DNA of 64,000 bases from Emticicia sp. C21. Its GTDB lineage: Bacteria; Bacteroidota; Bacteroidia; Cytophagales; Spirosomataceae. The stretch spans positions 970,063-1,034,062 of the forward strand of contig NZ_QVMT01000001.1 of NCBI RefSeq assembly GCF_003418935.1. The letters are read 5' to 3'. The notes under the pieces were generated by a model that saw only the letters and a program-made list of their open reading frames with translations, made no database searches and was not told where the DNA came from. Made by a program: the position numbers and the translations under genes. Below, piece after piece: positions 3,922-47,258 of this stretch. Every line of letters starts with the position of its first letter. Within the stretch, counting starts at the first letter, position 1.

Positions 3922-3995
3922 CCGGACTGCATGTCCCGCCCGCATCTAAAGTTCAGGAAACTTCTATTCTTAATGAAGAGTGACCTCGCCGGGAA
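3922..3995 (-). repeat. tRNA-Arg-derived boundary repeat X
   Basis: Read on the minus strand, this holds the 3' end of a tRNA-Arg (T-stem 3' strand plus acceptor 3' strand, CCCGGCGAGGTCA), an 11-nt linker, and an anticodon arm with loop TTCCTGA, followed by GC-rich palindromic DNA. It closely matches repeats Y (22502-22590) and Z (46948-47036). The match to the complete tRNA at 47023-47094 stops inside the T-loop. Confidence 0.7.
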
Positions 3996-4000
3996 ACAGA

Positions 4001-4177
4001 ACTTTCTTGACACAAGAAAAAAGTAAAATAAGTTAAGCTTAGTAAAAGAAATTCGTCTGCAATGTCGTCTGCATTCATAGGGTGTCATTACATATTATAA
4101 AGACAGAGTCTAGCAAGATAAAAATTACTAAACTCTGTCTTTTGAATTGCCTCAGAAAAAAACGTTAAGTTTTCATA
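4001..4177. repeat. 177-bp flank shared by the 3' ends of both giant genes
   Basis: This stretch aligns without any indel to 22655-22831, differing at only scattered positions. It contains a TCTTG-aca-CAAGA hairpin, a TCGTCTGCA direct repeat pair and the terminator described separately. It joins tRNA-derived repeat X to the stop codon of the giant gene, so the whole module end was duplicated as a block. The rest of the 3666-4177 gap holds the LytTR A promoter and repeat X; I see no gene in it. Confidence 0.8.
4099..4143 (-). terminator. Terminator of the first giant gene
   Basis: An inverted repeat pairs AAAGACAGAGTCTAG with CTAAACTCTGTCTTT around a 14-base AT-rich loop, about 35 bp past the stop codon. 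It is followed by an AT-rich tract. The same structure lies at the matching place after the second giant gene. Confidence 0.7.
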
Positions 4178-7100
4178 TCAATTATTACAACTCTGTATCT
4201 GGGCTTTAAAAACACTACCCTCTCTTGATTCAAATCCTGGATTTAATAAAATAGCTTTCCCTGAATTGTATGTCACATTCGCTGGAGAAGTAATCTTATT
4301 GTTTGCATTAATCAGTATAGATGCCTGTTCGGTAATTGTACCTGTATTGACATTTGCTGTCAGGCTCTTCGTAGCTGGCACAACAGACAAGTATTGCAAG
4401 GTTGGATTACTGGCAACCACTTGATTAGAGGAAGCTACCCGAATCAGATAACGGCCGGTCGATGATAAATTCTGTGGTAATTGGCAGGTAATGGTTCCGG
4501 CTATAGACGTTGTTCCAATCATAATAGGATTTGTAAAGCCACCTGTTGAGTCTGATAATTGAATATTAAACCTGTTACTTGAGTCGAATACACCTATTGT
4601 CCCGAAGGTCACATCAACTGTACTACCAGCACACAAACGGTTATTAGGAACAGTCGGTGCATGAATCACGGCCATTGTACCCACCACTGTAAAGGTTGTT
4701 ACCACCGGGCCATAGACTGTTCCTCCTATCCGGTTATCTTCTGTATAGCCTGTTACGGTCATCGTGTAAGTACCTGGTATCAGGTTGCGACCATATACAT
4801 TGACGCCCAAATTATCAAAAACTGCATAAGGTTCTACATTCTGTAAGATAGTCCAGTTAATTTCAGGGCCTGTGATAGTTAAATCAACGCTTCCAATTGA
4901 AGTAGTTGGACATATGGGCTTGGCAATAATTGAGACCTGTTCAGGAATTTGCTGGATAATCATGCCATCTTTCAAGGAGAACATATTCTGGTAAGGGTCT
5001 CCTGATTTTACATACTGCAAATCAACCACCTGTATACAAGGGTCTATACCACTGACAATAACCTGAGTTGTAGCGGTAGCAGAGCAGGCATTGTTAGAAA
5101 CAGTGACTGTATAAATTCCACCATTACTCTCTATTGCATTAGGAATAGCAGGATTTTGAATCGAACTGGAAAATGAAGCTGGCCCTGTCCAATTGTAAGA
5201 GGTACCGCCAGATGCATTTAATTGAATCGTTTGACCTATATTATAAGGTCCGGTATTAGTTGCTTGAGCGATAGGTTGAGATGTAATCTGTAAACCTGTT
5301 ACAACTGTACTTACCACACTTGTACAGCTACCAATTGTACAAGTAGCTGAGATTGAATAAGTGCCAATACTTGATAGTGTTAAACTTGTACCACTCCCAC
5401 CATTTGACCAATTTACTGTACCAGCACAACTACTGGCGGTCAATGTCAAAGTGCCTGGTAAACATACTACTTTCTGAGTTGGGGCGGTAATGGTTGGCGC
5501 TAATGGTTGTGTTACAATCTGTAAACCTGTTATTGCTGAACTTGCTGGAGATGTACAACTTCCCACTGTACAAGTAGCTGTGATGCTATAAGTACCCACA
5601 CTTGATAAAACCAGGCTTGTACCTGTTGTTCCTGTTGACCAGCTTACAGTTCCACCACAACCACTAGCTGTTAAGGTCAAAGTATTCGGTGCACATACTA
5701 CTTTTGAATTAGGAGCGGTAATGGTTGGCGCATTAGGTTGAGTCACAATCTGCAAACCTGTCACTGCCTGACTTGCTGGAGATGTACAATTTTCCACTGT
5801 ACAAGTAGCCGTAATGCTATAAGTACCCACGCTTGAAAGTGTTAAACTTGTTCCAGATGAGCCATTTGACCAAGTAACTTTTCCTGCACAACCACTAGCT
5901 GTTAAGGTCAAAGTATTCGGTGCACATACTACTTTTGAATTAGGAGCGGTAATGGTTGGCGCACTTGGTTGAGTCACAATCTGTAAGCCTGTAACCGTTT
6001 GGCTGGCTGCACTTGTACAAGAACCAACTGTACAGGTTGCAGAAATGCTATAAGTACCCACGCTTGATAAAACCAAACTTATCCCTGTTGCTCCATTCGA
6101 CCAGTTTACAGTTCCACCACAACCGTTGGCTGTTAAAGTCAATGTATTAGGTGAACAAACTACTTTTGGACTTGGTGTTGTAATAGTCGGCGCACTTGGT
6201 TGGGATACAATTTCTAACCCAGTAACTGCTGAACTTGCTGGAGAAATACAACTACCAATCGTACAAGTAGCCGTAATGCTATAAGTACCCACGCTTGATA
6301 AAACCAGGCTTGTACCTGTTGCTTCCGTTGACCAGTTCACTGTTCCAGCACAACCACTGGCTGTTAAAGTCAAAGTATTTGGGGCACACACTACTTTTGT
6401 ATTAGGGGATGTAATAGTTGGCGCAGATGGTTGTGTTACAATCTGTAAACCTGTTATTGCTGAACTTGCTGGGGAAGCACAACTTCCCACTGTACAGGTT
6501 GCTGTAATACTATAAGTGCCAACGCTTGATAAAACCAGGCTTGTACCTGTTGTTCCTGTTGACCAGTTCACTGTTCCAGCACAACCACTGGCTGTTAAAG
6601 TCAATGTATTCGGTGCACACACTACTTTTGGTGTTGGCGCTATAATGGTTGGTGCTGATGGTTGAGCGATGATTTGCAAACCTGTCACTGCGGTACTTGC
6701 TAGAGAAGTACAACTGCCGATTGTACAAGTAGCAGCGATTGAATAAGTCCCCACGCTTGAAAGCGTCAGACTTGTACCTGATGAACCATTTGACCAGTTT
6801 ACAGTGCCTGCGCATCCACTAACTGTTAATGTCAATGTGTTTGGGACACAGACTACTTTTGGATTTGGAGCGGTGATAGTTGGTGCTAATGGTTGGGTTA
6901 CGATTTGTAAGCCTGTTACTGCTGCGCTTGCATTGGAAGTACAACTTCCAACTATACAAGTAGCTGAAATTGAATAAGTTCCTACACTTGAAAGTGTTAA
7001 GCTTGTACCCGATGCACCTGTTGACCAATTCACTGTTCCTGCACAACCACTAGCTGTCAAAGTCAATGTATTTGGTGCACACACTACTTTTGGATTCGGC

Positions 7101-10100
7101 GCTGTAATGGTTGGTGCAGATGGCTGAGTCACAATCTGCAAACCTGTTACAGGCTGACTTATAGGAGATGTACAACTGCCTATCGTACAAGTGGTTGTAA
7201 TACTATAAGTTCCAACTGATGAAAGTGTCAGACTTGTGCCACTTGCACCATTCGACCAATTCACTGTTCCTGCACAACCACTAGCTGTTAAAGTCAATGT
7301 ATTCGGTGCACAAACTACTTTTAGTGTTGGCTCAATTATAGTTGGCGCACTTGGCTGCGTTACAATCTGCAAACCTGTCACTGCCTGACTTATAGGGGAT
7401 GTACAACTACCTACTGTGCAGGTTGCTGTAATGCTATATGTTCCTACACTTGAAAGTGTGATACTTGTGCCACTTCCACCATTTGACCAGTTTACAGTTC
7501 CTGCACAACCACTGGCTGTTAAGGTCAATGTATTTGGTGCACAAACTACTTTTGGATTAGGAGCTGTGATAGTTGGGGCAGACGGCACTGAACTTTCAAG
7601 AGTTACCGAAGTGGTCGATGTTGATGTACAACCATTATCACTAGTTACTGTAACTGTATATGTACCTGGAGAGGAAATAGTAGCTGTGGCATCAGTACCT
7701 AGTCCATTTGACCATTGATAGGTAGGTGATGAGCCACTCCCATTAGCTGTTCTGGTCACAGAAGCGATATTACATGATAAATTAATATTTCCAGTAATGG
7801 TAACCGTTGGCGGTGCTGCTATCTGTAAACCTGTTACAGCCTGACTCGAAGATGAAGTACAACTACCAACCGTGCAGGTGGCCGTAATGCTGTAAGTTCC
7901 CACCGAAGAAAGTGTGATACTTGTCCCACTTCCACCATTCGACCAGTTCACTGTTCCGGCACAACCGCTGGCTGTCAAGGTTAATGTATTTGGGGCACAT
8001 ACTACTTTTGGTGTTGGCGAGGTAATGGTTGGGGCAGATGGTTGGGTCACAATCTGTAAACCTGTCACGGATGAGCTTGCTGGAGATGTACAACTTCCAA
8101 CCGTACAAGTGGCTGTAATGCTATATGTACCTACACTTGATAAAACCAGGCTTGTAGCTGTTGCTCCCGTTGACCAGTTCACTGTTCCAGCACAACTACT
8201 GGCTGTCAAGGTCAAGGTGCTTGGTGCACACACTACTTTTGAATTAGGAGCTGTAATAGTTGGCGCAGATGGTTGAGTGAATATTTGCAAACCTGTCACT
8301 GCGGTACTTGCTGGAGAAGTACAACTGCCGATTGTACAAGTAGCAGAGATTGAATAAGTCCCCACGCTTGAAAGCGTCAGACTTGTACCTGATGAACCAT
8401 TTGACCAGTTTACAGTGCCTGCGCATCCACTAGCTGTTAATGTCAATGTGTTTGGGGCACATACAACTTTTGGTGTTGGTGCTGTGATAGTTGGCGCACT
8501 TGGCTGAGTTACAATCTGCAAATCTGTTACGGCCGGACTTACCGGAGATGTACAACTACCCACTGTACAGGTAGCTGATATGCTATAAGTACCCACGCTT
8601 GATAAAACCAAACTTGTACCTGTTGCTCCGGTTGACCAGTTCACTATTCCACCACAGCCACTGGCTGTTAAAGTCAATGTATTTGGAGCACACACTATTT
8701 TTGGATTAGGGGCGGTAATGGTTGGTGCTGATGGTTGAGGCAAAATCTGCAAACCTGTCACTGCAATACTTGATGGAGAGGTACAACTACCCACTAAACA
8801 AGTGGCAGTAATACTATAAGTACCCACACTCGAAAGTGTAATACTTGTGCCACTTCCGCCATTTGACCAGTTCACTGTTCCTCCACATCCACTGGCTGTT
8901 AAAGTTAATGTGCCTGGGGAACAAACTACTTTTGGATTTGGACCAACAATAGTTGGAGCACTTGGTTGTGTCATAATCTGTAAACCTGTTACAACTGCAC
9001 TTGCGGGAGAAGTACAAGAACCCGCTGTACAAGTGGCACTAACACTATAAGTGCCTACGCTTGATAAAATCAAACTTGTTCCTGTCGCACCCATTGACCA
9101 GTTCACTGTTCCACCACAACCACTCGCTGTTAAAGTCAATGTACTTGGTGCACACACTACTTTCTGAGTTGGGGCGATAATAGTTGGTGCTAATGGTTGA
9201 GTAACAATCTGTAAACCTGTTACAGCCTGACTTATCGGAGACGTACAACTACCTACTGTACAGGTTGCTGTAATGCTATAAGTGCCTACGCTCGAAAGTG
9301 TGATATTTGTGCCTGTCCCCTCGGTTGACCAGTTCACTATTCCGGCACAATCACTGGCTGTTAAGATCAATGTATTTGGCGCACATACTACTTTTGGATT
9401 AGGAGCTGTAATGGTTGGTGCAGAAGGCTGAGCAACAATTTGCAGACCTGTTACTGCTGAACTAGCTAGAGAAATACAATTTTCCACTGTACAAGTAGCT
9501 GTGATACTATAGGTACCCACGCTTGATAAAACCAGACTTGTACCTGTTGCTCCCGTTGACCAGTTCACTGTTCCGCCACAACCACTGGCTGTTAAGGTCA
9601 ATGTATTTGGTGCACACACTACTTTTGGATTAGGTGCCGTAATTATTGGCGCAGATGGTTGAGTCACAATCTGCAAACCTGTCACTGCAATACTTGATGG
9701 AGAGGTACAACTACCCACTGTACAAGTGGCAGTAATACTATAAGTTCCCACACTTGATAAAACCAAACTTGTACCTGTTGCTCCCGTTGACCAGTTCACT
9801 GTTCCGGCACATCCACTGGCTGTTAAAGTTAAAGTATTTGGTGCACACACTACTTTTGAATTAGGAGTTGTAATGGTTGGTGCAGAAGGCTGAGCGAGAA
9901 TTTCTAAACCTGTTACTAAATTGCTGGCATTAGAAACACAATTATTGACTGTACAAGTTGCTGAGATGGCATAAGTACCAACCGATGAAAGCGTCAGGCT
10001 TGTACCACCGCTACCATTCGACCACCTGATGGTTCCGGCACATCCACTGGCTGTCAAAGTAAGGGTATTTGGAGAGCAAACTACTCTTGGACCTGGTGCG

Positions 10101-18613: not shown

Positions 18614-18654
18614 AATGGCAGAAAGTTTTTGGGTTAATTTATGGTAGGAGATGT

Positions 18655-18723
18655 AAAGACCGGAGAGAAATTCCTCGTCAGGAACTCCCTCCGAATCTAT
18701 TCTTTCTACCACGAAAGGTCTTT
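18655..18723 (-). ncRNA. Candidate structured intercistronic RNA element, copy B
   Basis: On the minus strand AAAGACC (18723-18717) pairs perfectly with GGTCTTT (18661-18655). Inside are the hairpin TTTC-GTGGTA-GAAA and a longer stem in which GGAGGGAGTTCC pairs with GGAATTTCTCTCC around TGACGA. The 5' part reads as the last codons of LytTR A (KDLSW stop) although LytTR B ends differently upstream, so the element may have been carried in with a copy of the A-type junction. Confidence 0.45.
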
Positions 18724-18758
18724 TTAGCTGTTTGTTTTTCAGCTTCATTTATTTAAGA

Positions 18759-19085
18759 TTAATAAGTATTGATGCTTCTGGTTACCTGTTTAGTTCTTCT
18801 CCTCGATACCTGAATCACTTCATTATTATTGAGTTTAATAGATTTGTCTCTTCTCTGATATTCTGTCAGGAAATCAAGATTTACCAGTACCGATCGGTTA
18901 GGTCTTATAAACTGGCAGGAAGGCAATCGTTTGGCTAACCTCCCCAATGATGTTGCCGAAAGAATCATGTTTCCGTTGTTGAGATGTACTTCTGTGTAGT
19001 TGCTGTCGGCTCTCATAAACAGAATAGTAAAAGGGTCTATTTTGGTACGCCAGCCAAGTTGTAAAAGGGGTTCCTGAATCATCAT
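18759..19085 (-). CDS. LytTR-type DNA-binding regulator B (108 aa)
   Basis: This is a stand-alone LytTR DNA-binding domain. It shows ADSNYTEVHLNNG, the FIRPNRSVLVNLDFL block and VSRRRTKQ near the end. It lacks a receiver domain and transmembrane segments, so it acts in the cytoplasm as a DNA-binding protein. The ATG at 19085 is the first of two adjacent start codons (MM), and the second is equally possible. Its nearest relative here is LytTR C, with which it shares KIDPxTIL and SRRRTKQ. It lies 145 bp upstream of giant gene 1 on the same strand and diverges from hybrid kinase 1, which makes that kinase the likely partner; how a signal would pass between them is not visible. The promoter carries the shared 21-bp-period direct repeats. 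Confidence 0.9.
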   Translation of the reverse strand: MMIQEPLLQLGWRTKIDPFTILFMRADSNYTEVHLNNGNMILSATSLGRLAKRLPSCQFIRPNRSVLVNLDFLTEYQRRDKSIKLNNNEVIQVSRRRTKQVTRSINTY

Positions 19086-22486: not shown

Positions 22487-22501
22487 ATGTCTTAAGTTTG
22501 T

Positions 22502-22590
22502 GACCTCGACTGCGCGTACCGGACTACGCGTCGCGCCCGCATCTAAAGGTCAGGAAACTTATATTCCATTAAAGAGTGACCTCGCCGGGA
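22502..22590 (-). repeat. tRNA-Arg-derived boundary repeat Y
   Basis: This 89-bp stretch begins 15 bp after the hybrid kinase 1 stop. It holds, on the minus strand, the tRNA 3' tail CCCGGCGAGGTCA, a degraded anticodon arm and a GC-rich palindromic insert, ending in another CGAGGTC. It matches Z (46948-47036) over its full length and stops at the same base in the T-loop, followed here by unrelated DNA. Confidence 0.75.
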
Positions 22591-22654: not shown

Positions 22655-22831
22655 ACTTTCTTGACACAAGAAAAAAGTAAGATAAGTTAAGATTAGTAAA
22701 AGAAATTCGTCTGCAATGTCGTCTGCATTCTTAGAGTGTCATTACACATTATAAAGACAGAATTTAGCAAGATAAAAATCACTAAACTCTGTCTTTTGAA
22801 TTGCATCAGAAAAAAACGTTACGCTTTCATA
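22655..22831. repeat. 177-bp flank of giant gene 2, duplicate of 4001-4177
   Basis: It aligns base for base, without indels, to the 3' flank of giant gene 1, including the TCTTG/CAAGA hairpin, the TCGTCTGCA pair and the terminator. The 22487-22831 gap otherwise holds only repeat Y and about 65 bp of AT-rich DNA with no recognisable content. Confidence 0.8.
22753..22796 (-). terminator. Terminator of the second giant gene
   Basis: AAAGACAGAATTTAG pairs with CTAAACTCTGTCTTT with one mismatched position, which a G-U pair can accommodate in one strand. It lies 36 bp past the stop of giant gene 2, in the same position as the terminator of giant gene 1. Confidence 0.7.
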
Positions 22832-40800: not shown

Positions 40801-42244
40801 CGGTGGTAGAAGGAGTATTAAAATTGGCAGTTTCGGTAAAATATCCGGTAAAATAGAAATAGGTATCAGATGCCACAATGGCATTCCCGAAATCTTCCCC
40901 TAATCCCCCTGCTCTGTTAGCCCATTGAAAAACACCACTGGTATTATATTTAGCAAAAAAAATATCACTGCTAACAGCAGTAATTTCATTGCTTCCACTG
41001 GCAGACGGGGTATTAAAATTGGCAGTTTCATTAAAACGACCTGTGATAAATATATTCGTACCAGCTGTGCTGATGCCGTAACATTCATCATCAAATCTTC
41101 CTCCGGCTCTTCGTGCCCATTGTATGACACCTGATGAATTATATTTAGCTACAAAAACATCTGACCCTCCACTACTTACAATCTCATTGCTTCCTGAAGC
41201 AGATGGCGTATTAAAATTAGCTGTATTGTTAAATATACCCACTATATATATATCGCTTCCCCGTATCGCTATATCAGAACTTTTATCTTCATTCGCCCCT
41301 CCTGCTCTTCGTACCCATTGCAATGCGCCTGATAGATTATACTTAGCAATAAAAATATCAAAACTCCCGGCACTTGTAATCTCGTTGCTCCCACTAGTAG
41401 AAGGTGAATTAAAGTTAGCCGTACCTGCAAAAGTGCCTGTGATATAGACGTCAGTATTATTTAATACAATATTATTGCCAGAATCATGAGATGTTCCCCC
41501 CGCTCTCCTACTCCATTGATAAACCCCTTCCGCACTAAATTTAGCAACAAATACATCTAGCCCCCCTCCACTTACAAGTTCGTTACTTCCGGTAGCAGAT
41601 GGTGTATTAAAGTTGGCTGTAAGAATAAAATCACCTGTTATAAAAACATCCTGTCTGGAGGCAGATATAGCTACTCCTCTACTTAAATCCTGTCCACTCC
41701 CACCTGCTCTTTTTATCCATACTAATTCACCGCTAGTATTATATTTGCCAAGAAAAATATCCGTTGATCCGGCACTGACAATCTCATTACTACCAATAGC
41801 AGATGGAGTATTAAAATTGGCCGTTCCGTTAAATTCGCCTGATACATATATATCCAGGCCTGATACCGCAATATCATTTGCTTTATCAACTCCCGTTCCT
41901 CCTGCCCTTTTAGCCCATTGAAAGTTACCCGAAGCATCATATTTAACAATAAAAATATCTTCTGCACCAGCACTTGTCAGTGTTGTGGTTCCAAAAGTAG
42001 CTGTACCCTTAAAGTATCCTACCTGATAAACATTATCACCGGCATCAATACCTATAGATTTCGCAACCACTTCATCCGAAGAAGAACCAGCGGTAGATTG
42101 CCGGATAAAATTTAAAGTTTGGGCAGATGTTTTATCAATTGCACAAATCCAGAGTATTATCAGCAAAAATAATTTTACACTAAATCCTATCTGCTTTTTT
42201 ACAAAGAATGGCAATAACCGGGTAGTAAAAAATACTTTTTTCAT
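22832..42244 (-). CDS. Giant secreted propeller / Ig-repeat surface protein 2 (6470 aa)
   Basis: The 19.4-kb gene starts at the ATG at 42244; a TTG seven codons upstream is less likely. Residues 1-42 are a signal peptide with a long basic start, ending DKTSAQ. Four rounds of SBBP-type propeller repeats (KRAGG, ANFNTPSASGSNE) follow, each closed by a Big_3-type Ig domain, at about residues 502, 1055, 1615 and 2168. Then come one WYN Ig domain (about 2258-2335), forty-five 77-residue four-cysteine repeats with four 75-residue spacers (to about residue 6106), a PKD-like segment (TGPYAIGQTIQL) and a C-terminal region nearly identical to that of giant protein 1, ending in the same GCX-like motif with a single cysteine before NN. 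It follows LytTR C by 56 bp. No catalytic domain is visible; a fibrous surface adhesin is inferred from the architecture. Confidence 0.92.
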   Translation of the reverse strand: MKKVFFTTRLLPFFVKKQIGFSVKLFLLIILWICAIDKTSAQTLNFIRQSTAGSSSDEVVAKSIGIDAGDNVYQVGYFKGTATFGTTTLTSAGAEDIFIVKYDASGNFQWAKRAGGTGVDKANDIAVSGLDIYVSGEFNGTANFNTPSAIGSNEIVSAGSTDIFLGKYNTSGELVWIKRAGGSGQDLSRGVAISASRQDVFITGDFILTANFNTPSATGSNELVSGGGLDVFVAKFSAEGVYQWSRRAGGTSHDSGNNIVLNNTDVYITGTFAGTANFNSPSTSGSNEITSAGSFDIFIAKYNLSGALQWVRRAGGANEDKSSDIAIRGSDIYIVGIFNNTANFNTPSASGSNEIVSSGGSDVFVAKYNSSGVIQWARRAGGRFDDECYGISTAGTNIFITGRFNETANFNTPSASGSNEITAVSSDIFFAKYNTSGVFQWANRAGGLGEDFGNAIVASDTYFYFTGYFTETANFNTPSTTGTNELTAVGAKEFFLAKYKDLTSTTTAITTGNNSSSVGSNVQFTAQVVPSSATGTVNFKEGNTLLGAGTLDGLGYARFNVNGFDLGTHTITAEYVADTNHIASKSSGLSVEVIALTEPKLSFIRQTASTGASTNKHTTTDATGNVYVTGLFNGTLTFGNTILQSAGEEDIFIAKYNAAGVFQWAKRAGGTANDNGNSIAISGNDVYITGIFNGTANFNTPSAIGTNEIISAGSTDIFLAKYDGDGNFIWVKKAGGTSSESSKSIAVLGNDLYITGEFLGTSDFNTTGNAAGNILTSGGFNDIFIARYNSSGELQWVKKAGGLGVQTSTDITISGTDVYITGHFYGTSDFNTTGNTAANILTSAGSADIFIARYNSSGELQWVKKAGGTGEDIGRGIAVSDTELYVTGSFSVVADFNTSGNSTTNILTCNGNTDIFVARYDTSGELQWVKRGGGSAYDSGYDIAIVNNNVYVLGFFQYSGNFSTPYINGIYEIISAGSADIVIARYNNSGEVIWLKRAGGTEYDNPYGIVGSGNNIYIAGLFSDTANFNTPANPGSNQLVAAGSSNGFLAKYDISETTTTTTLTSNNNSASLGANVQLTATLTPSGATGTVTFKEGSTTLGTATLSSGVAKFNTDLLTVGTHNITAEYAGDGSYAASTSNALSQVVNALNTPRLTLIRQSAGISSGSSTYAESVATDALGNVYKTGYFKEIVNFGTTTLTSVGGEDIFLVKYNASGTVLWAKRAGGTGNDQGVNVAVSGSYVYIVGIFFNTANFNTPSASGSNEIISAGSSDAFVAKFDDSGNFQWAKRAGGTAGEEASGLAISGSDIYVSGIMQAKSNFNNPSATGSNELINSGGSNCFLAKYNSSGDFQWARRGASTSTYNSSTSIAVSGTNVYIAGVFQGSNNFNTPSSSGSNEITSAGNDDIFIANFTTSGDIQWVRRGGGTATDRISAIAVYNNDVYITGLFNGTANFNTPSASGSNELVSAGDSDGFIAKYSNTGSIQWLKRFGGTGIDASTNIALTNTTIYQIGIGSSLANFNTPSATGINEFLFGLSDMFLAEYNHSGDLQKIKRIGGGSSHQEDMVVSGNDLYIVGTFNTGIAFYNLDGVGRDRLRGVSFYESFLVKYDISASPSTTTLTSNNNPASVGANVQLTATVLPSSATGTITFKNGATTIGSATLSSGVAKFNTTLLPVGTHSITAGYNGDDTYAASISSTVSQEVNALTAPNLGFIRQSANLKTNGTASSFNSATDASGNVYITGIFSETLTLGGTTLRSDGGNDILLAKYNAAGVLQWAKRAGGNGNDAGINIAVAGTDVYIIGYFAGTANFNTPSASGSNEISSAGNNDIFIAKYNASGDIQWVKRTGGGGYDMGSAITVLGSDVYIGGNFNGTINFNTPSTSGSNELTSSGGSDIFIAKYTNSGAFQWAKRAGGLNADEGYALAASDTEIYFTGIFSETANFNTPSASGSNELISDGGYDVFVAKYSSSGNLQWLKRAGGSSDDVSSAIVWSGTDIYLTGYFLSTANFNTPSAAGSNEITSIGGQDAFIAKYNPSGIIQWAKRAGDTSNDVGYAITTSGDNIYMSGNFRGTANFNTPSADGSNEITSVSGSDVFVAKYNDSGVFQWAKRSGSTGNDYGWGITASGTNIYVSGSFSGISDFNTPTATGSNELKAAGLTEFFLANYSDINIPTTIILTSDSNPASVGANVQFMATLSPSAATGTVIFKEGNTTLGTATLSNGVATFTTNTLLAGTHSITAEYSGNGTYETGTSNELLQVINCVNPTDVSVDNANICSGSSINLTASCATGIITWYNQATGGSEIGTGSGLTQSPIVNTTYYASCKDGSCESGRAATSQVTVSTPSAPTITASNSLTVCAPSTLTLTASGCAGTVTWSTGSSGTSLTISSVGTYSISATCTVGSCTSVPSETITGLQIVTQPSAPTITAPNPKVVCAPSTLTLTASGCAGAVNWSNGSSGTILTLSSVGTYSISATCTVGGCTSPASTAVTGLQIITQPSVPTITAPNPKVVCAPSTLTLTASGCAGTVTWSTGSSGTSLTLSSVGTYSISATCTVGSCTSPASAAVTGLQIVTQPSAPTITAPNPKVVCAPSSLTLTASGCAGTVTWSNGSLGTSLTLSSVGTYSITATCTVGSCTSPASAAVTGLQIVNQPSAPTITAPNQKVVCSPSTLTLTASGCAGTVDWSNGSSGTSLTLSIVGTYAISATCTVGSCTSVPSSAVTGLQIVAPPTVSITGNINLSCNTTSVTRTANGSGVSPTYQWSDGLGTNALATITSPGTYTVIVTEANNCTATATTSVTVESSVPNAPTVTAPTTKVVCSPSTLVLTASGCAGTVIWTNNSTGTSLTVSSVGTYTISATCTVGSCTSPASTAVTGLQVISQPSAPTITAPNPKVVCAPSTLTLTASGCAGAVTWSTGSTGTSLTLSSIGTYSISATCTVENCTSPASIALTGLQIVTQPSAPTINAPTTKVVCSPSTLVLTASGCAGTVNWSTGATGTILTLSSVGTYSISATCTVGSCTSVSSPTVTGLQIVVPPTVSITGNINLSCNTASVTRTASGSGASPAYQWSNGLGTDATATITSAGTYTVTVTGDNGCTATATTSVIVESSMPSAPTITAPNPKVVCAPSTLTLIASGCAGTVTWSTGATGTSLALSSVGTYSITATCTVGSCTSPASTAVIGLQIITQLSAPTITAPNPKVVCAPSTLTLIASGCAGTVTWLTGATGTSLALSSVGTYSITATCTVGSCTSDASAAVTGLQIVTQPSAPIITAPNSKVVCAPSTLTLTASGCAGTVNWSTGSSGTSLTLSSVGTYSISATCTVGGCTSPASATVTGLQIITQPSAPTITSPNPKVVCAPNILTLTASGCAGTVNWSTGASGTSLTLSNVDTYSIIATCTIGSCTSPASTTVAGLQIVTQPSAPTITAPNLKVVCSPSTLTLTASGCAGTVNWSTGAIGTSLTLSSVGTYSISATCTVGSCTSVSSPTVTGLQIVTPPTVTISGNINLSCTTASVTRTASGSGILLTYQWSNGLGTNAIATITSAGTYTVTVTGANNCTAIATTSVTVESTVPDAPTITAPNPKVVCAPGTLTLTASGCAGTVNWSNGSSGTSLTLSSVGTYSITATCTVGSCTSPASTAVTDLQIVSQPSAPTITAPNPKVVCSPGTLTLIASGCAGTVNWSNGSSGTSLTLSSVGTYSISATCTVGSCASVASTAVTGLQIVTQPSAPTITAPNPKVVCAPSTLTLTASGCAGTVTWSNGSSGTSLTLSSVGTYSITATCTVGICTSPASSAVTGLQIVTQPSAPTVTSPNPKVVCAPGTLTLTASGCAGTVAWSNGSSGISLTLSSVGTYSISATCTVGSCTSPASAAVTGLQIVTQPSAPTITAPNPKVVCAPGTLTLTASGCAGTVTWSNGSSGISLTLSSVGTYSITATCTVGNCTSPASAVVTGLQILSQPSAPTITAPNPKVVCAPSTLTLIASGCTGTVNWSNGSTGTSLVLSSVGTYSITATCTVGSCTSPASTAVTGLQIVTQPSAPIITAPNPKVVCAPSTLTLKASGCAGAVNWSTGASGSSLTLSSVGTYSITATCTVGSCTSIASTTVTGLQIVSQPLAPTITAPNPKVVCAPSTLTLTASGCAGTVNWSNGSSGTSLSLSSVGTYSISATCTVGSCTSVASTAVTGLQIVNQPSAPTITAPNPKVVCAPSTLTLTASGCAGTVTWSNSSSGTSLTLSSVGTYSISATCTVGSCTSVPSETITGLQIVSQPSAPTITAPNPKVVCAPSTLTLTASGCAGTVTWSNGSSGTSLTLSSVGTYSITATCTVGSCTSPASTAVTGLQIVTQPSAPTITAPNPKVVCAPSTLTLTASGCAGTVNWSTGASGTGLTLSSVGTYSISATCTVGSCTSVASSVITGLQIVTQPSAPTITAPNPKVVCAPNTLTLTASGCAGTVNWSTGAAATSLVLSSLGTYSISATCTVSSCTSSISQTVTGLQIIAQPSAPTITAPTPKVVCAPNTLTLTASGCGGIVNWSNGGSGTSITLSSVGTYSITATCTLGSCTSPSSNAVTGLQIVNQPSAPNITAPNPKVVCAPNTLTLTASGCGGTVNWSNGGSGTSITLSSVGTYSITATCTVGSCTSPASTAVTGLQIISQPSAPTITTPNSKVVCAPNTLTLTASGCGGTVNWSNGGSGTSLTLSSVGTYSITATCTVDSCTSPASLAVTDLQIFTQPSAPTITAPNPKVVCSPGTLTLTASGCGGTVNWSNGGSGTSLTLSSVGTYSITATCTVGSCISPVSQAVTGLQIVAQPSTPTITALNSKVVCAPNTLTLTASGCAGTVNWSNGGSGTSITLSSVGTYSITATCTVGTCTSLTSQAVTGLQIVAPPTVIITGNINLSCNIASVTRTANGSGVTPTYQWSNGLGTDATATISTPGTYTVTVTGDNGCTATATTSVTVESSVPSAPTITAPNPKVVCAPNTLTLTASGCAGTVNWSNGGSGTSITLTNVGTYSITAICTVGSCTSPSSTAVTGLQIITQPAAPTVNAPNPKVVCSPNTLILTASGCRGGVNWSNGSSGTSLMLSSVGTYSISATCTVGNCTSPASTTVTGLQIVNQPSAPTITAPNPKVVCAPGTLTLTGSGCAGTVTWSTGAIGTSLTLSSIGTYSITATCTVGICTSPASTAVTGLQIVSQPSAPIITAPNPKVVCAPSTLTLTASGCAGTVTWSNGSSGTSLTLSSVGTYSITATCTVGSCTSVNSTAVTGLQIVTQPSAPTITAPNPKVVCAPSTLTLTASGCAGIVTWSTGATGTSLTLSSVGTYSITATCTIGSCTSSASTAVTGLQIVTQPSAPTITVPSPKVVCAPSTLTLTASGCAGTVNWSTGATGTSLVLSSVGTYSISATCTVGSCTSPASTAVTGLQIVTQPAAPTITAPNPKVVCAPSTLLLTASGCAGTVTWSNGSSGTSLTLSSVGTYSITATCTVGSCISPASTAVTGLQIVTQPSAPTITAPNPKIVCSPSTLTLTASGCAGTVTWSTSSSGTSLTLSSAGTYSISATCTVGSCTSPASAEVTGLQIVAQPSSPIIAAPNPKVVCAPSTLTLTASGCAGTVNWSNGSTGTSLTLSSVGTYSITATCTVGSCTSPASTAVTGLQIVTQPSAPTITAPNPKVVCAPSTLTLTASGCAGTVNWSNSSSGTSLILSSVGTYSISATCTVGSCTSPASTAVTGLQIVTQPSAPTITAPNPKVVCAPSTLTLTVSGCAGTVTWSTSSSGTSLTLSSVGTYSISATCTVGNCTSVPSTTVTGLQIVTQPSAPTITAPNPKVVCAPSTLTLTASGCAGTVNWSNGSTGISLVLSSVGTYSITATCTVGSCTSPASTAITGLQIVSQPSAPTITTPNPKVVCAPSTLTLTASGCAGTVNWSTGASGTSLTLSSVGTYSITATCTVGSCTSPASTAVTGLQIVTQPSAPIITAPNPKVVCAPNTLTLTASGCTGTVTWSNSASGTSLTLSSVGAYSISATCTVGSCTSVASAAVTGLQIVTQPSAPTITAPNPKVVCAPSTLTLTASGCAGTVNWSTGASGTSMTLSSVGTYSISATCTVGSCTSVASAAVTGLQIVTPPNAQASNTGPYAIGQTIQLNASGGTSYSWAGPASFTSSIQNPVIPNAIADNGGVYTVTVSNNACSATATTQVIVSGIDPCVQVVDLQYVKSGDPYQNMFSLKDGMVIQQVPEQVSIIAKPICPTISIGSVDLTITGPEINWTILQNVEPYAVFDNLGVNVYGRNLIPGTYTMTVTGYAEDNRVGGTVYGPVVTTFTVVGTMAVIHAPTVPNNRLCAGSTVDVTFATTGSFDSSNLFKIQLSDSTGGFTNPVVIGTTTAAGTITSQLPQNLSATGKYLIRVASSNQVVASNPTMQYLSVTPATKNLTADINTGTVTEQASVQINADNKITSPANVTYNAGKAIILNPGFESREGSVFKAQIQGCNN
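23927..35221 (-). repeat. Tandem 231-bp repeat array, 45 units plus four spacers
   Basis: Forty-five units of exactly 77 codons are interrupted at four places by a 75-codon spacer with NINLSC and GTYTVTV motifs. The 11,295-bp span equals 45 x 231 + 4 x 225 exactly. Units carry four cysteines each. Units in the middle (for example around 29,000-31,500) are closer to one another than to the outer ones, which suggests local homogenisation. Confidence 0.92.
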
Positions 42245-42300
42245 GGGGGTAGAGATTTTATTCAATAGCTGTATTGTGAGTATAAATAATAGAGAGGTTC

Positions 42301-42636
42301 TTAGTTTGATTGTCTCATACTTCTTCGGGCCTGCTTGGTTCTCCTTCTCGAAATATGTATGAGTTCGTTATTAGCCAGCTTGATAGTAGCAGTATCTTTT
42401 TCAAAATCGACCAGATAATTAAGGTTGATAAGCGTTGAGCGGTTGGGTCTGAAAAACTGGTAGGCAGACAATCTTTTTTGTAGAATACCCAACGTAGTAG
42501 ACGATAAAATCATAGTGCCATTAGCCAGATAAACCTGGGTATAGTTGCAGTCGGCCTTCAACAAAAGGATAGTATCTGGGTCAATTTTGTGGTGCCATCC
42601 AAGGCGGATCAGCACATCTTCTCTCATCAATTCCAT
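42301..42636 (-). CDS. LytTR-type DNA-binding regulator C (111 aa)
   Basis: A stand-alone LytTR domain with LLLKADCNYTQVYLANG, the FFRPNRSTLINLNYL block and ISRRRTKQARR. An upstream start is possible in the same frame (to 42789), but it would cover the promoter box and direct repeats shared with LytTR A and B. The ATG at 42636 gives 111 residues, matching the paralogues (116 and 108), so I chose it. The gene lies 56 bp upstream of giant gene 2 on the same strand and diverges from hybrid kinase 2. The protein should bind DNA in the cytoplasm; control of the giant gene and of its own promoter is inferred from the arrangement. Confidence 0.9.
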   Translation of the reverse strand: MELMREDVLIRLGWHHKIDPDTILLLKADCNYTQVYLANGTMILSSTTLGILQKRLSAYQFFRPNRSTLINLNYLVDFEKDTATIKLANNELIHISRRRTKQARRSMRQSN

Positions 42637-42675
42637 AGCTTGGCAGTAGTGTTTTTTCGGGCTTACAAACTGTTT

Positions 42676-42741
42676 CAAAAGTAGCATAGGTAGCCCCGGA
42701 GGCGTGAACGCAAAAATTACAAACTTGCCCTCATTTTTTAC
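42676..42741 (-). promoter_or_regulatory. LytTR C promoter with paired direct repeats
   Basis: A TACTTTTG box (42683-42676, minus strand) matches TAnnTTTG. Direct repeats CGCAAAAATTAC (42709) and CTCATTTTTTAC (42730) are 21 bp apart, and the first begins 26 positions from the end of the box, the same spacing as at LytTR A and B. This also supports the shorter start for LytTR C. Confidence 0.65.
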
Positions 42742-42850
42742 ATTCATTAAAAAAATGCGTTGTTTTTGCATTTTTCCCCAAACAAACATTCATTTTTTAC
42801 CATTCAATAATTCAGCTATTGAATTGTTTTTTATTGACCTCTTATCGTAT

Positions 42851-42858: not shown

Positions 42859-42884
42859 ATTTTTTTTAAAGCCTACTTCCTTGC

Positions 42885-45800
42885 ATGCGTCTTAAAATTG
42901 TCATACTTCTATTTCTTTCAATAGCCTGTGTTGCGCAGCAGAATCTATGGAAACCCATTACCATTGCTGATGGGCTTTCGCAAGGAATGGTTAACGACAT
43001 TGTTCAGGATAGGCAGGGTTTTATGTGGGTAGCTACCAAAGATGGACTGAACAGATATGACGGCTATAATTTTAAAATATTTACGCACAATCCTTATAAG
43101 GAATATAGCATTTCGGGTAATAACTGCACACGGCTTTTAGAAGACTCAAAAGGTAGAATCTGGGTGAGTACAGAAAACGACGGGCTCAATTTATTTGACC
43201 CTCTTACTCAAAAGTTTTATCATGCCAATCCCAGAATAGCCAACAACGAACGCAACTTTGTTATCTTTTATCTGAAAGAAGATACAGCAGGCAATATCTG
43301 GGTTATTACGGATAATCCTGAAAAATCATTCTTCATTACACAAAAAGGGTATCCTGCTCAGGCAGATTTCAGTAACTGGCTTATTGAAGCCGACTTTGCT
43401 TCCAGACAAAAAACCAGTTTCAGATACGATGTTCATTCAATGAGTCTTCAAATAGCTAAATCATTCTCTATAAAAAATCATTTCCCCTCCAGTTTTGACG
43501 CGAAGATAGACCTTGAAGCCTATAAAGTTTTAGAAGATAAGCAAAAGCGCTACTGGGTAGCCGGACAAACCGCCATTCATTGCATTGTTAATAATAAAAT
43601 CATCAAAACTATTCCTTTTCCAACCTCTGTTTTGGGAATTACTGTACTCAATCAGTTTGATGACGAGACTTTAACCATTTGTAATCAGGAATATCTGTGG
43701 CTTATAAAGCCTGATAAATTAATAAAAACAGCGCAATTGACTCCTGCGAATGCTTTTGCTACAATGCCCAGACTCCTTGAAGGAATGAGACAGTTTTTTA
43801 AGGATAAGAGCGACAATATATGGGCTGGCACTTTTGGTTATGGTTTATTTCGCTTCAATAAAAATGTCAAGCAGTTTCAATCGTTTCTGGCTGGTTATTC
43901 GCCAAGCCACCTTTTACAAGACAAACAGGGGCGGTTATATATACATGGCAACTACCGGCCCAAGTATAGATATTATCAGGTAGATAAAGCTCGCAATACT
44001 ATATCACCAATACCCCATAGCATCGACCACCCCACTTATGTAGACAATCTGCTGATGCAGGATAGCAGGAATAATTTTTACCTGATTTATACTATCAATG
44101 GTAAAAGAGTGATGGCCTATTTTTCTACAGATTGGCAAAAGCTGAAAGAATATGAATTACCCCCCGTCTATGTGTTTGGAGGAGGCGTTTACAGTTATAA
44201 AATGCTAGAGGATAAAGACGGTAATATCTGGTTGGGTGTTACGGATGGAAACCTGATTAAGTTTAATCCTGAAACAGAAACATTTCAGGTATTTAATTAC
44301 CAGCACCTGCTGCCTGAAAACAGCCTCACTGTAGAGACTTTTTCTATATATCAGGATCATAAAGACATTATCTGGATTGGTACACAAAAGGGATTAATAA
44401 AGGCCGAGGGGCTTTCGGGTAAACCCAGGTATACCATTTACAAAAACAACAAAACCGATGGGCAGAGTTTAAGCAACGATTTTGTATCGGCTATAGTAAG
44501 CGACCCCAATCAACCTGACAAATATTTGTGGGTAAGTACGAAAGGCGGAGGCCTTGAAAGACTAGATAAACAAAGTGGGAAATTTGAGCATTTTACGGAA
44601 GAACAAGGCTTACCTAATAAAGTTGTTTATGGCATATTAGTGGGCAATGATACTAATCTATGGTTATCGACTAATAGAGGTTTATCAAGATTTACCCCTA
44701 AAACGGCGGCATTTACTAATTTTAATAAATCAGATGGGTTACAGGATGATGAATTTAATACCAATTCTTACTTTAAAGCCCCAACAGGTGAATTATTTTT
44801 TGGTGGGATAAATGGCATCAACATTTTTAAAGCGTCGGATATTAATCATAGTAAAGACATACCTGTCATTAAGATTTTCGGTTTAAAAATTAACAACAAG
44901 CCTATAGAAGTCAACGATAAAGCAGCTGTGCTTGAAAAACCTATTGAATATATCCGGAAACTGGAAGTAGCGCACGAACAGAATCAGATTTCTTTAGAGT
45001 TCGGAGTTATGGACTTTACCAACCCTGTCAAAAACCGCTATCGCTATCAATTAGTAGGTCTGGACGATGATTGGGTAGAAGCAGGAACTGACCATTTTGC
45101 CAACTATGTTCAGATACCCAGTGGAACTTATACATTCAGGGTAATGGGTACGGTAAATGGTGAAGTTTGGAGTAAACCCATTGAGTTAATCATTCGTGTC
45201 AATCCGCCATTTTATCGCACGTGGTGGGCTTATCTTATTTATCTGACCCTATTCACTTATACCGTTTATCGTTTGTATAAGAACCAGTTAAAAAGGGTTC
45301 GTTTGCAGGAACAACTCATATATAAAGACAAAGAAGCGGAAAGACTGGCTGAACTGGATTCATTGAAGACCAGATTCTTTGCTAATATTTCGCACGAGTT
45401 CCGTACACCGCTAACTTTGCTGGCAGGCCCACTGTCTGATTTAAAGAAAAAATATCCTCAGGAAGGGATTGTGCATGTCATGCAACGTAACCTGAGCCGA
45501 TTGCAGACCTTGATTAATCAGTTACTCGATTTATCGAAACTGGAAGCAGGGAAAATGGCTCCAAAAATTCAGCAGGCAGATTTAGCCGGTTTTCTCAAAC
45601 AGCTACTGGCTTCGTTTGACTCTCTGGCAGAAAGTAAGGACATAAGCTTTGTGTATGATAAAAACGATACCAGACAGATTGCGTATTTTGATAGTGATAA
45701 AATCGAGAAAATCATTACCAATTTATTATCTAATGCTTTCAAATTTACACCTGAAGGTGGAAAGATTGCTATACAAACTACCTATACCGACACTTCGTTT

Positions 45801-46925
45801 ACCATACAAGTACAGGACTCGGGTATTGGTATTGAACAAGAACGGCTAACGTCTATTTTTGACCGTTTCTATCAGGTTGAAGATAGTGCTTCGCTAAAAA
45901 GTTATACTCGGAATTATGAAGGAACGGGCATTGGATTGGCATTGGTAAAAGAATTAGTAGATGTATTACAGGGACAAATAAACGTTGAAAGTCAGATAAG
46001 CGTAGGTACGACCTTTACGGTCTCTATTCCGACAGATAAAGCCACGTGGGGAAAATACCTGAATAAGGAGGCTTTATTAACCGAACCTAATGTTGGTAAA
46101 ATAGAGAGGTCTGATTCAGGCTATTTAACATCAAACCTTACCAACAATGAATCGATTCAACATGATTCAGAATTACCAATTCTACTGATTATTGAAGACA
46201 ATACAGATTTAAGAGCTTATATCAGAAGTCATTTTGAGTTAAGCTACCAGATTGTAGAAGCGGCAGATGGACAAGAAGGTTATGAAAAAGCAGTAGAGCT
46301 GATTCCGGATTTAGTGATTTGCGATTTAATGATGCCCCGGTTAGATGGCTTTGGTTTCTGTAAACTCGTGAAATCAGATATGCGCACCAATCATATTCCG
46401 GTAATCATGCTTACCGCCAGAGCAGCGCTTGAAGACCGATTGGAAGGGCTTGAATTAGGTGCAGATGATTATCTGGCCAAGCCTTTTAATACAGATGAAT
46501 TACAGATTCGGGTGCGTAACCTGATTTTTATCAGACAGGCACTGCAACAAAAATACAGTCAATCAGTTTATCAGGAACCTTTGAGCTATGAGCCCAAAGA
46601 GGATTCTTTAAACGACCAGTTTCTACAGCAACTTCATGCCATAATAGATAAGAACTTAATAAATACTGACTTTAGTGTAAATATATTGGCTGACGAAATG
46701 AATATCACGCCAAGCCAGCTAAGACGTAAATTAAAAGCCATAACCGACCAGACAATTATTGAATTTATTCGCAATTATCGTTTGCAGAAAGCGGCAAAAA
46801 TGCTTCAGAATAAATATATTACGGTTTCAGAAGTAGCCTATCAGGTGGGCTTTGAAAGTATCTCGTATTTCGCAAAAGTATTTCAGGAAGTATATGGTAA
46901 AACTCCATCGGAGTGGAGTAATTGA
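42885..46925 (+). CDS. Hybrid sensor kinase 2: propeller sensor, Y_Y_Y, HisKA, HATPase, receiver, AraC HTH (1346 aa)
   Basis: This is a hybrid two-component protein of the kind common in Bacteroidetes polysaccharide-utilisation control. A short signal peptide (1-18) leads into two-component-regulator propeller repeats (about 20-680, beginning ITIADGLSQGMVNDI and recurring IWVSTENDGL-type blades), a Y_Y_Y domain (about 690-770, RYRYQLVGLDDDWVEAG) and one membrane segment near 780-800. The cytoplasmic part has the HisKA box ISHEFRTPL with His837, the ATPase motifs NLLSNAFKF, DSGIGI and GTGIGLALV, a receiver with Asp1147 in CDLMMPRLDG, and an AraC helix-turn-helix ending TPSEWSN. It is close to hybrid kinase 1 from the HisKA domain on. 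It diverges from LytTR C and giant gene 2. Module control is inferred; the GH20 gene beyond the tRNA is another possible target. Confidence 0.93.
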   Translation: MRLKIVILLFLSIACVAQQNLWKPITIADGLSQGMVNDIVQDRQGFMWVATKDGLNRYDGYNFKIFTHNPYKEYSISGNNCTRLLEDSKGRIWVSTENDGLNLFDPLTQKFYHANPRIANNERNFVIFYLKEDTAGNIWVITDNPEKSFFITQKGYPAQADFSNWLIEADFASRQKTSFRYDVHSMSLQIAKSFSIKNHFPSSFDAKIDLEAYKVLEDKQKRYWVAGQTAIHCIVNNKIIKTIPFPTSVLGITVLNQFDDETLTICNQEYLWLIKPDKLIKTAQLTPANAFATMPRLLEGMRQFFKDKSDNIWAGTFGYGLFRFNKNVKQFQSFLAGYSPSHLLQDKQGRLYIHGNYRPKYRYYQVDKARNTISPIPHSIDHPTYVDNLLMQDSRNNFYLIYTINGKRVMAYFSTDWQKLKEYELPPVYVFGGGVYSYKMLEDKDGNIWLGVTDGNLIKFNPETETFQVFNYQHLLPENSLTVETFSIYQDHKDIIWIGTQKGLIKAEGLSGKPRYTIYKNNKTDGQSLSNDFVSAIVSDPNQPDKYLWVSTKGGGLERLDKQSGKFEHFTEEQGLPNKVVYGILVGNDTNLWLSTNRGLSRFTPKTAAFTNFNKSDGLQDDEFNTNSYFKAPTGELFFGGINGINIFKASDINHSKDIPVIKIFGLKINNKPIEVNDKAAVLEKPIEYIRKLEVAHEQNQISLEFGVMDFTNPVKNRYRYQLVGLDDDWVEAGTDHFANYVQIPSGTYTFRVMGTVNGEVWSKPIELIIRVNPPFYRTWWAYLIYLTLFTYTVYRLYKNQLKRVRLQEQLIYKDKEAERLAELDSLKTRFFANISHEFRTPLTLLAGPLSDLKKKYPQEGIVHVMQRNLSRLQTLINQLLDLSKLEAGKMAPKIQQADLAGFLKQLLASFDSLAESKDISFVYDKNDTRQIAYFDSDKIEKIITNLLSNAFKFTPEGGKIAIQTTYTDTSFTIQVQDSGIGIEQERLTSIFDRFYQVEDSASLKSYTRNYEGTGIGLALVKELVDVLQGQINVESQISVGTTFTVSIPTDKATWGKYLNKEALLTEPNVGKIERSDSGYLTSNLTNNESIQHDSELPILLIIEDNTDLRAYIRSHFELSYQIVEAADGQEGYEKAVELIPDLVICDLMMPRLDGFGFCKLVKSDMRTNHIPVIMLTARAALEDRLEGLELGADDYLAKPFNTDELQIRVRNLIFIRQALQQKYSQSVYQEPLSYEPKEDSLNDQFLQQLHAIIDKNLINTDFSVNILADEMNITPSQLRRKLKAITDQTIIEFIRNYRLQKAAKMLQNKYITVSEVAYQVGFESISYFAKVFQEVYGKTPSEWSN

Positions 46926-46947
46926 ATGAAGAAATTTACAGAATTAA

Positions 46948-47036
46948 GACCTCGACTGCGCATCCTGGACTATACGCCGCGCCCGCATCTAAAGTTCAGG
47001 AGACTTGTATTCTAATTAAGAGTGACCTCGCCGGGA
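46948..47036 (-). repeat. tRNA-Arg-derived boundary repeat Z
   Basis: It begins 22 bp after the hybrid kinase 2 stop. The last 14 bp are the 3' end of the tRNA-Arg gene itself; the rest is a degraded second copy with an anticodon arm (loop CTCCTGA), a GC-rich palindromic insert in place of the T-arm, and a CGAGGTC acceptor strand. It matches repeat Y over 89 bp and repeat X over 74 bp. Confidence 0.75.
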
Positions 47037-47094
47037 ATCGAACCCGGATCTAAAGTTTAGGAAACTTCTATTCTATCCGTTGAACTACGTGGTC
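47023..47094 (-). tRNA. tRNA-Arg (anticodon CCT)
   Basis: The 72-base sequence folds as a standard cloverleaf: acceptor GACCACG/CGAGGTC with discriminator A, D-stem GTTC/GAAT, anticodon stem GAAGT/ACTTT with loop TTCCTAA (anticodon CCT, reading AGG), and T-stem CCGGG/CCCGG with loop TTCGATT. No CCA is encoded. The acceptor has one A-A mismatch at the fifth pair. The same A is present in both partial copies upstream, so this 5' half may have been copied among them. It is probably functional, but the mismatch leaves some doubt. Confidence 0.85.
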
Positions 47095-47258
47095 TTTATA
47101 TTTTTTAGTTATAGTTCAAAAGTTTAGGAAACTTCTATCGGTGCGACGCTCGCTCTATCCGTTGAACTACGTGGTCTTTATATTTTTTAGTTATAGTTCT
47201 AAAGTTCAGGAAACTTCTAGCGGTGCGACGCTCGCTCTATCCGTTGAACTACGTGGTC
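47095..47258 (-). repeat. Two tandem 82-bp units, each a tRNA-Arg 5' half with a 15-base insert
   Basis: Two head-to-tail units, 47095-47176 and 47177-47258, differ at only a few bases. Each holds, on the minus strand, the acceptor 5' strand, D-arm and full CCT anticodon arm of the tRNA-Arg, with GCGAGCGTCGCACCG inserted between the D-arm and the anticodon stem. Each then breaks off into an AT-rich spacer; T-arm and acceptor 3' strand are missing. The tRNA follows in the same direction with the same 82-bp spacing of 5' ends. Confidence 0.85.

Follow-up and report, generated by a model that had tools for sequence, protein, structure and literature searches.

Giant-protein modules in tandem at the tRNA-Arg(CCT) gene of Emticicia sp. 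C21: a probable hotspot for integrase-less, CIME-like islands

Tandem repeats beside tRNA genes are known from Escherichia coli tyrT, where 178-bp repeats, each with the tRNA end, lie downstream of the tRNA and no module-sized cargo lies between them. Such cargo is present in the array analysed here, in which modules made of genes for a giant protein, a LytTR protein and a hybrid kinase lie one after the other beside the tRNA-Arg(CCT) gene of Emticicia sp. C21. The window, that is, the whole stretch of 64,000 nucleotides that was analysed, corresponds to C1:970063-1034062 (contig NZ_QVMT01000001.1) within a 6.64-Mb genome of 33 contigs, and feature positions are given in window coordinates. 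Regarding islands in tandem, those described at the ssrA gene of Dehalococcoides are located downstream of the RNA gene and delimited by direct repeats (20 bp) of the 3′ end of this gene; 15 of them are without integration module and, in the words of the sections consulted, might be cis-mobilizable elements (CIMEs), and one type of cargo is frequent among them (PMC3146451). They differ from the Emticicia array in the target (tmRNA), the integrase (a homologue of CcrB) and the cargo (reductive dehalogenases), and the attached pseudo-tRNA halves are a feature of Emticicia that is not mentioned for those islands in the sections consulted (PMC3146451). CIMEs keep attL and attR, have lost the genes for integration and transfer, and stack by integration at the end of the target gene; according to the sections consulted they are decayed integrative and conjugative elements (ICEs) or integrative and mobilizable elements (IMEs) (PMC5704250), whereas no remnant of transfer or integration genes was seen in the scanned open reading frames (ORFs) of the Emticicia modules. 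In the additive flexible islands of Methylophilaceae, repeats of the last 20 bp of tRNA-Lys accompany variable cargo, following the sections consulted; the tRNA is another one, and the term "giant protein" is absent from the text (PMC10872708). The original prediction for this locus knew of no described system in which giant Ig-repeat proteins, LytTR and a divergent hybrid kinase are paired as a tandem unit. Tandem, partly integrase-less islands at the end of an RNA gene are already in print; the new part is the cargo of giant, LytTR and kinase together with the hairpin-bearing pseudo-tRNA halves, and neither tandem self-regulated giant-protein cassettes nor hairpin-bearing tRNA halves were found in open-licence full texts, in part among the matches listed.

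We consider it probable that this tRNA-Arg(CCT) gene is a hotspot with tandem accretion of integrase-less, CIME-like islands bounded by attachment (att) sites, each of them a cassette of kinase, LytTR and giant adhesin. The predicted gene order was verified, and from left to right it is repeat X, giant 1, LytTR B, kinase 1, repeat Y, giant 2, LytTR C, kinase 2, repeat Z and the intact tRNA-Arg(CCT) (47022-47094, minus strand). The tRNA-derived direct repeats around the modules hold as well. The 18-mer CCCGGCGAGGTCACTCTT, formed by the 3′ end of the tRNA and the 4 nucleotides that follow, is found exactly at 3976-3993, 22572-22589, and 47018-47035, always on the minus strand, with a mean of 0.01 matches per window in shuffled windows when up to 3 mismatches were allowed. 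The core of X (3976-3995, minus strand), proposed as the distal att site of module 1, is identical to the tRNA over 20 bp (positions 58-77) at +43.1 kb, and the core of Y (22572-22590, minus strand), proposed as a chimeric att site between modules 1 and 2, over 19 bp (positions 59-77) at +24.5 kb; the core of Z (47018-47037, minus strand), which would be the att site on the tRNA side, consists of the tRNA 3′ end plus TCTT. After each copy of the 18-mer, in the direction of the minus strand, there is a degenerate half of tRNA-Arg(CCT) with anticodon arm and T arm: X′ (3922-3975), where the T arm is altered, Y′ (22502-22571), and Z′ (46947-47017), directly 3′ of the tRNA. Where they can be aligned, X, Y, and Z share 86-87% identity. 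Genome-wide, significant matches to Z were obtained only at the places of X, Y, and Z, and the next one (E 0.176) is a tRNA 5′-half copy inside the window. X, Y, and Z were discarded as conventional tRNA genes because Rfam, run on positions 1-50000 with E ≤ 1, detected the intact tRNA as the sole tRNA match.

The 177-bp flank that had been claimed for both modules was confirmed. It lies 3′ of the stop codons of giant 1 (4001-4177) and giant 2 (22655-22831), on the minus strand, with 93.8% identity between the two, and the junction of flank and core is identical at X and Y. Other copies were sought in 18 genomes, where the best match had an E of 0.0035 over 41 bp. The flank of giant 1 holds a direct repeat of TGCAGACGA with a spacing of 12 bp, which we infer to be candidate integrase arm sites, and a terminator-like inverted repeat was spotted in it by eye. 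Reading from the tRNA outward, the order tRNA-Z-module 2-Y-module 1-X corresponds to tandem stacking at one target site. The array runs further to the left than first noted, as beyond X there is a module 0, without kinase gene, formed by LytTR A (3315-3665, minus strand, 116 aa, PF04397) and giant 0 (3245 aa, minus strand), whose N-terminal part occupies positions 1-2845 and whose gene extends to -6892. The ORF of 137 aa between both (2895-3308) has no Pfam match and no counterpart in modules 1 and 2.

The ends of the modules were compared with those of integrase-bearing elements at the same tRNA. A tRNA match was present in 54 of the 58 genomes searched, and 36 tRNA-Arg(CCT) loci were examined. 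At six of them (G003, G007, G023, G030, G034, and G035; domains confirmed in G003 and G007 only) a tyrosine-recombinase-like gene begins 56-270 bp downstream on the same strand; CcrB, for its part, is a serine recombinase. In four of these six loci the tRNA 3′ end is repeated directly at a distal position: 14 bp exact in G034 (positions 60-73, +46.2 kb), 18 bp exact in G007 (59-76, +9.6 kb), 17 bp exact in G030 (57-73, +11.7 kb), and at least 14 bp exact in G035 (+7.1 kb). Considering that these distal repeats cover nearly the same positions of the same tRNA, X and Y look like att ends. In the loci without detected integrase (29/32), exact copies of the 14-mer were seen in five, all within 506 bp, in pseudo-tRNA arrays, and none further out, in a control that extended no further than 10 kb downstream (only 2 bases for G029 and, as its contig stops there, 78 for G016) and whose 14-mer was displaced by a few bases at four loci. 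The distal copy was absent in G001 (about 50 kb scanned) and in G008 (10 kb), and a search of the core in viral contigs gave 0 matches. With two query proteins, an integrase of the G007 type (E ≤ 1e-30) was found in three of the eight genomes searched, always adjoining tRNA-Arg(CCT); at this threshold it is absent from the genome of the window and from G001, G002, G003, and G008.

Taking into account that no integrase was seen in the modules and that the G007 type is absent from this genome, the modules are considered integrase-less. The Pfam scan of the main ORFs of modules 1 and 2 yielded giant, LytTR, and kinase, and no integrase, relaxase, or conjugation genes; the scanned ORFs thus fall outside the definition of an ICE or IME, which has its own integrase together with relaxase or conjugation genes. 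The features of CIMEs are found instead: att-type direct repeats of the end of the target gene occur at X and Y, the main ORFs scanned in the modules include no own integration or transfer genes, and the modules are stacked in tandem at a single target. In the mechanism that we propose, a tyrosine integrase, once encoded in cis or coming from another element, would have inserted a DNA circle by recombination within the terminal ~17-20 bp of the tRNA gene; the tRNA would stay intact, and its 3′ end would be duplicated at the distal boundary of the insert. When another, related island then entered at this point, the order tRNA-core(Z) / module 2 / core(Y) / module 1 / core(X) would result, and what lies beyond X would be what is left of an older module (LytTR A-giant 0).

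The comparison of the locus in relatives, which the original prediction had advised, showed that occupancy varies. The GH20 gene precedes tRNA-Arg(CCT) in all nine genomes of the same genus with the locus retrieved (G001, G002, G003, and G005-G010). In G002 the tRNA and the cyd genes are separated by about 3 kb of other genes, with no module, and in the genome of the window this interval is about 59 kb. G001 has one kinase and one giant at the site, in the opposite orientation. In E. agri (G008), kinase, LytTR, and giant are directly beside the tRNA, with at least one module, and the contig breaks inside the giant; a second contig begins within a giant, followed by a CotH-type gene and then by cyd. 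These differences in occupancy among G002, G001, E. agri, and the genome of the window define the place as a hotspot with variable content. It was also noted that in E. agri contig 65 (L108 1204-4653) a CotH-kinase/lamin-tail protein comes immediately after the giant, at the same hotspot.

A different origin would be an in-situ tandem duplication running from the T arm of the tRNA through kinase, LytTR, giant, and flank, which would copy the tRNA 3′ end and be followed by divergence. We regard it as unlikely. The identical flank-core junction at X and Y, the 94% identity of the flanks, and the 85-89% identity of the giant C-termini fit well with it. Synonymous divergence (dS, by Nei-Gojobori estimates), however, is 2.88 between the cores of kinases 1 and 2, is saturated between LytTR B and C, and ranges from 0.74 to 1.21 in the giant C-termini, and the repeats (about 87% identical) and the flank are much less diverged than kinases and LytTRs. 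It follows that the kinase and LytTR pairs are older than the repeats that flank them, or that the repeats are constrained. As a reference, the GH20 gene has a dS of 1.12 between the genome of the window and E. agri; giant 0 and the giant fragment of E. agri contig 81 have a dS of 1.08, about the same between-species level, and their neighbours differ. Besides, kinases 1 and 2 can be aligned only over the C-terminal ~570 aa (69% identity), their sensors not at all, and the breakpoint of a duplication would have to fall at nearly the same tRNA positions that are used by integrase elements elsewhere.

A tree of 16 LytTR sequences, with several long branches and a program warning, led in the same direction. 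A single clade of LytTR A, B, and C was rejected by the approximately unbiased (AU) test (p-AU 2.6e-5). LytTR A is sister (100/99) to an E. agri LytTR from contig 41, away from the contig of the tRNA locus, and LytTR B and C form a group (97/93) with the LytTR of the E. agri tRNA locus. The sisterhood of B and C was not rejected (p-AU 0.24), a result in favour of duplication; as B and C are possibly sisters and the flank/core junction is identical at X and Y, one step may have been a duplication. A recent triplication of one module is ruled out by the synonymous divergence and the AU test. Altogether, these comparisons favour separate arrivals of the modules, with a B/C duplication possible. 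The original prediction had left "duplication or integration" undivided: integration gains from the matching ends of integrase elements and from the variable occupancy, and duplication gains little, with the divergence of kinases and LytTRs close to or at saturation and A+B+C rejected, the sisterhood of B and C not being rejected.

It could also be that old, differing modules were homogenised by homologous recombination that spread X, Y, Z, and the flank, with no site-specific step. The giants share long repeats, the dS of their C-termini is below that of kinases and LytTRs, and the E. agri contigs break within giants, a sign of repeats; all this is in line with such a process. It would leave unexplained, on the other hand, why the core ends fall at the att positions of integrases and why the repeats are confined to one locus, and we give it a low probability.

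As regards the cargo, giant 1 (4178-18748, 4856 aa) and giant 2 (22832-42265, 6477 aa), both on the minus strand, have N-terminal stretches that resemble signal peptides by eye, and Big_3_5 and Ig_7 domains; in giant 2 the N-terminal part holds Big_3_5 and, in addition, a weak DUF5122 match, and SBBP propeller repeats in giant 1 score below the model cut-off. A motif of 77 aa is repeated 20 times in giant 0, 20 in giant 1, and 44 in giant 2. The C-terminal ~235 aa are 85-89% identical across the three giants (89% between the last 233 aa of giant 2 and giant 1); in giant 1 this end matches GCX_COOH (NF045639), and there was no type IX secretion system model among the NCBIfam matches of the giant 1 scan. 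LytTR B (18759-19085, minus strand, 108 aa) and LytTR C (42301-42789, minus strand, 162 aa as ORF, with the start probably near 42627 according to the alignment) contain only the DNA-binding domain. All these LytTR proteins (108-162 aa) are a LytTR domain without receiver in Pfam and are therefore not LytTR response regulators as defined.

Kinase 1 (19544-22486, plus strand, 980 aa) and kinase 2 (42885-46925, plus strand, 1346 aa) are hybrid proteins with HisKA, HATPase_c, receiver, and AraC-type helix-turn-helix (HTH). The class to which kinase 2 compares is that of the hybrid two-component systems (HTCS) of Bacteroidetes, whose architecture it has in one chain: a Reg_prop propeller sensor at the N-terminus, Y_Y_Y, HisKA, HATPase_c, receiver, and AraC HTH. 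Unlike HTCS that go with polysaccharide genes, the Emticicia kinases are paired with a single-domain LytTR and a giant, and the sensor of kinase 1 is a different one, in which a weak TPR match, below the cut-off, takes the place of Reg_prop. In modules 1 and 2 the kinase and the LytTR-giant genes are transcribed divergently from a common intergenic region, which suggests that the kinase output may control the LytTR-giant operon. The hybrid histidine kinase would sense an envelope signal and, through its AraC output and together with the single-domain LytTR, switch the divergent operon; the giant would be secreted and serve as adhesin. The giant C-terminus had no match in a plasmid collection, and LytTR C matched 2 records with 32.5-32.7% identity. 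The 32.7% match is a LytTR-only protein on the 59-kb Emticicia oligotrophica plasmid NC_018743.1 (6196-6510).

The same set of genes was also found elsewhere. Of 13 named loci, 10 were annotated (L171-L180; 3 distant ones were left out), and in three of these ten a LytTR is accompanied by a hybrid kinase and by a giant or GCX-type protein: E. agri, at the tRNA, and E. aquatilis and Lacihabitans sp. LS3-19, both tRNA-free. The giant of the E. aquatilis triplet has 1970 aa and the protein of Lacihabitans 1129 aa, the latter corresponding to the C-terminal part only; in both tRNA-free triplets the kinase is co-directional and not divergent. LytTR and giant without an adjoining kinase were seen in L172 and L178, and also in L173, where the contig start is too near to tell. 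Because the triplet is also present where there is no tRNA, an intrinsic link or strict bond between module and tRNA was discarded; the cassette is a unit that recurs in the group, with the tRNA as one of its addresses. The original prediction had named two observations that would speak against it, namely, modules at tRNA-free loci, which do exist, and repeats common genome-wide, which were not found.

Another aspect of the locus is the nature of the tRNA halves. Of the 36 loci, 13 were flagged for additional tRNA copies, and after removal of G003 (a second complete tRNA) and G043 (tRNA-Arg(CCG)), partial copies flank tRNA-Arg(CCT) in 11, in 10 of which no module was seen. They are mostly 5′ halves upstream, with an insert in the D arm, and 3′ halves downstream, with an insert in the T loop, often in tandem (a 130-bp unit present four times in G022, and a 108-bp unit four times in G032), and one copy of G016 bears both inserts. 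Arrays of this kind with no giant module seen are those of L154 (G022), L161 (G032), L075 (G006), and L080/L081 (G016). In the window, two 5′-half copies on the minus strand (47116-47185 and 47198-47267) carry an identical D-arm insert of 15 nt in a tandem unit of 82 bp, and X′, Y′, and Z′ belong by eye to the 3′-half type, their T arms being longer and altered. The inserts, short and rich in GC, can in most cases fold into a hairpin; in the T loop the form is CGGN-stem-CGNN-stem before TTCGA, and the D-loop form is roughly its reverse complement. Taken singly, only 2 of 18 hairpin inserts reach a fraction of ≤0.02 against letter shuffles. A 16-nt hairpin pattern gave 25 matches vs 13 in the reversed control, and 17 of the 25 are within tRNA copies, coming from seven loci with tandem copies counted singly. 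Two insert patterns searched in 58 genomes matched only tRNA-Arg(CCT) copies, except for one match with 2 mismatches in G034, and two hairpin-tRNA patterns had 0 matches each in viral contigs.

In the genome of the window, with 54 RF00005 matches, a nearby partial match was found at 9 of the 50 tRNAs examined. By eye, inserts are also present near tRNA-Asp, -Gly(TCC), -Pro, and -Lys, and not clearly in the remainder; a tRNA-Lys-like 3′ half near tRNA-Gly(GCC) in L191 is free of insert. Downstream of tRNA-Asp(GTC) (L198, C1:396500-397900) there are two almost complete tRNA copies, both of which have a similar terminator and the T-loop hairpin insert CGGT-GCGA-CGTT-TCGC. Partial copies with GC-rich inserts are those of tRNA-Gly(TCC) (L195 650-900), tRNA-Pro(TGG) (L200, ~1100), and tRNA-Lys(CTT) (L190 793-869), and the 16-mer CGGTCCGCCGCTGCGG of the tRNA-Pro insert reads, in reverse complement, exactly as an insert found in the D arm in G018, which is of another genus. 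We propose the pseudo-tRNA halves as att arms or landing pads. The broader idea, that tRNA halves with a GC-rich hairpin of ~16 nt in the D or T loop constitute an undescribed class of structured repeats, most of them with the 3′ or 5′ end of the tRNA preserved, which could act as landing pads or att arms and punctuate an array of shuffling adhesin cassettes, is tentative, and we would not count on it. Insert-bearing copies at 11 of the 36 loci, 10 of them without module seen, and similar ones by eye at tRNA-Asp, -Gly, -Pro, and -Lys could also indicate that the tRNA repeats have no relation with mobility, being structured elements, for example, terminators or decoy RNAs, that arise near tRNAs and landed between modules. 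This seems very improbable, as Y and X coincide exactly with module ends at distances of 24.5 and 43 kb from the tRNA, and arrays elsewhere reach at most ~600 bp.

Returning to the accretion of integrase-less islands at the tRNA, several observations weigh against it. No integrase was found in the scanned module ORFs, the match of G030 to the G007-type integrase contains one stop codon, G003 is without distal core and has its second complete tRNA-Arg(CCT) 1.6 kb further on, and in G023 the contig ends too soon for a distal copy to be judged. The outer end of the array has no tRNA-end copy of at least 12 bp, and module 0 is for this reason unbounded on the left. In E. agri, a relative of kinase 2/LytTR C adjoins the tRNA, and the att copies expected to bound the module were missing, with no remnant of X, Y, or Z on the contigs examined. 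G001 has a lone 25-bp copy of the tRNA end (96%) on another contig than the tRNA (L082 9994-10018, C1), among genes that match none of the window's and with no integrase identified there; such fragments can therefore arise outside recognised islands. The flank (94%) is far more conserved than the adjoining synonymous sites (dS 0.74-0.77), and constraint on an att arm or gene conversion is thus needed. To these are added the tRNA-free triplets, the possible sisterhood of LytTR B and C, and the scope of the 14-mer control and of the integrase queries given above.

With respect to the surroundings, the GH20 beta-hexosaminidase gene (47364-49721, minus strand) is the conserved anchor beyond the tRNA. 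At the other side, two adjacent TPR-repeat genes (-11496 to -7214) separate giant 0 from a lipocalin-like gene that adjoins cyd.

The locus shows how giant surface proteins that are alternatives to one another, each accompanied by regulators of its own, can be stacked by a bacterium at a single place in the chromosome. A concrete site, the 3′ end of tRNA-Arg(CCT), and candidate integrases of the G007, G030, and G035 type are now available. If the pseudo-tRNA halves were landing pads, islands would insert beside the essential tRNA rather than in it, and if the halves are functional, they would account for the tolerance of an essential tRNA gene to islands that insert repeatedly.

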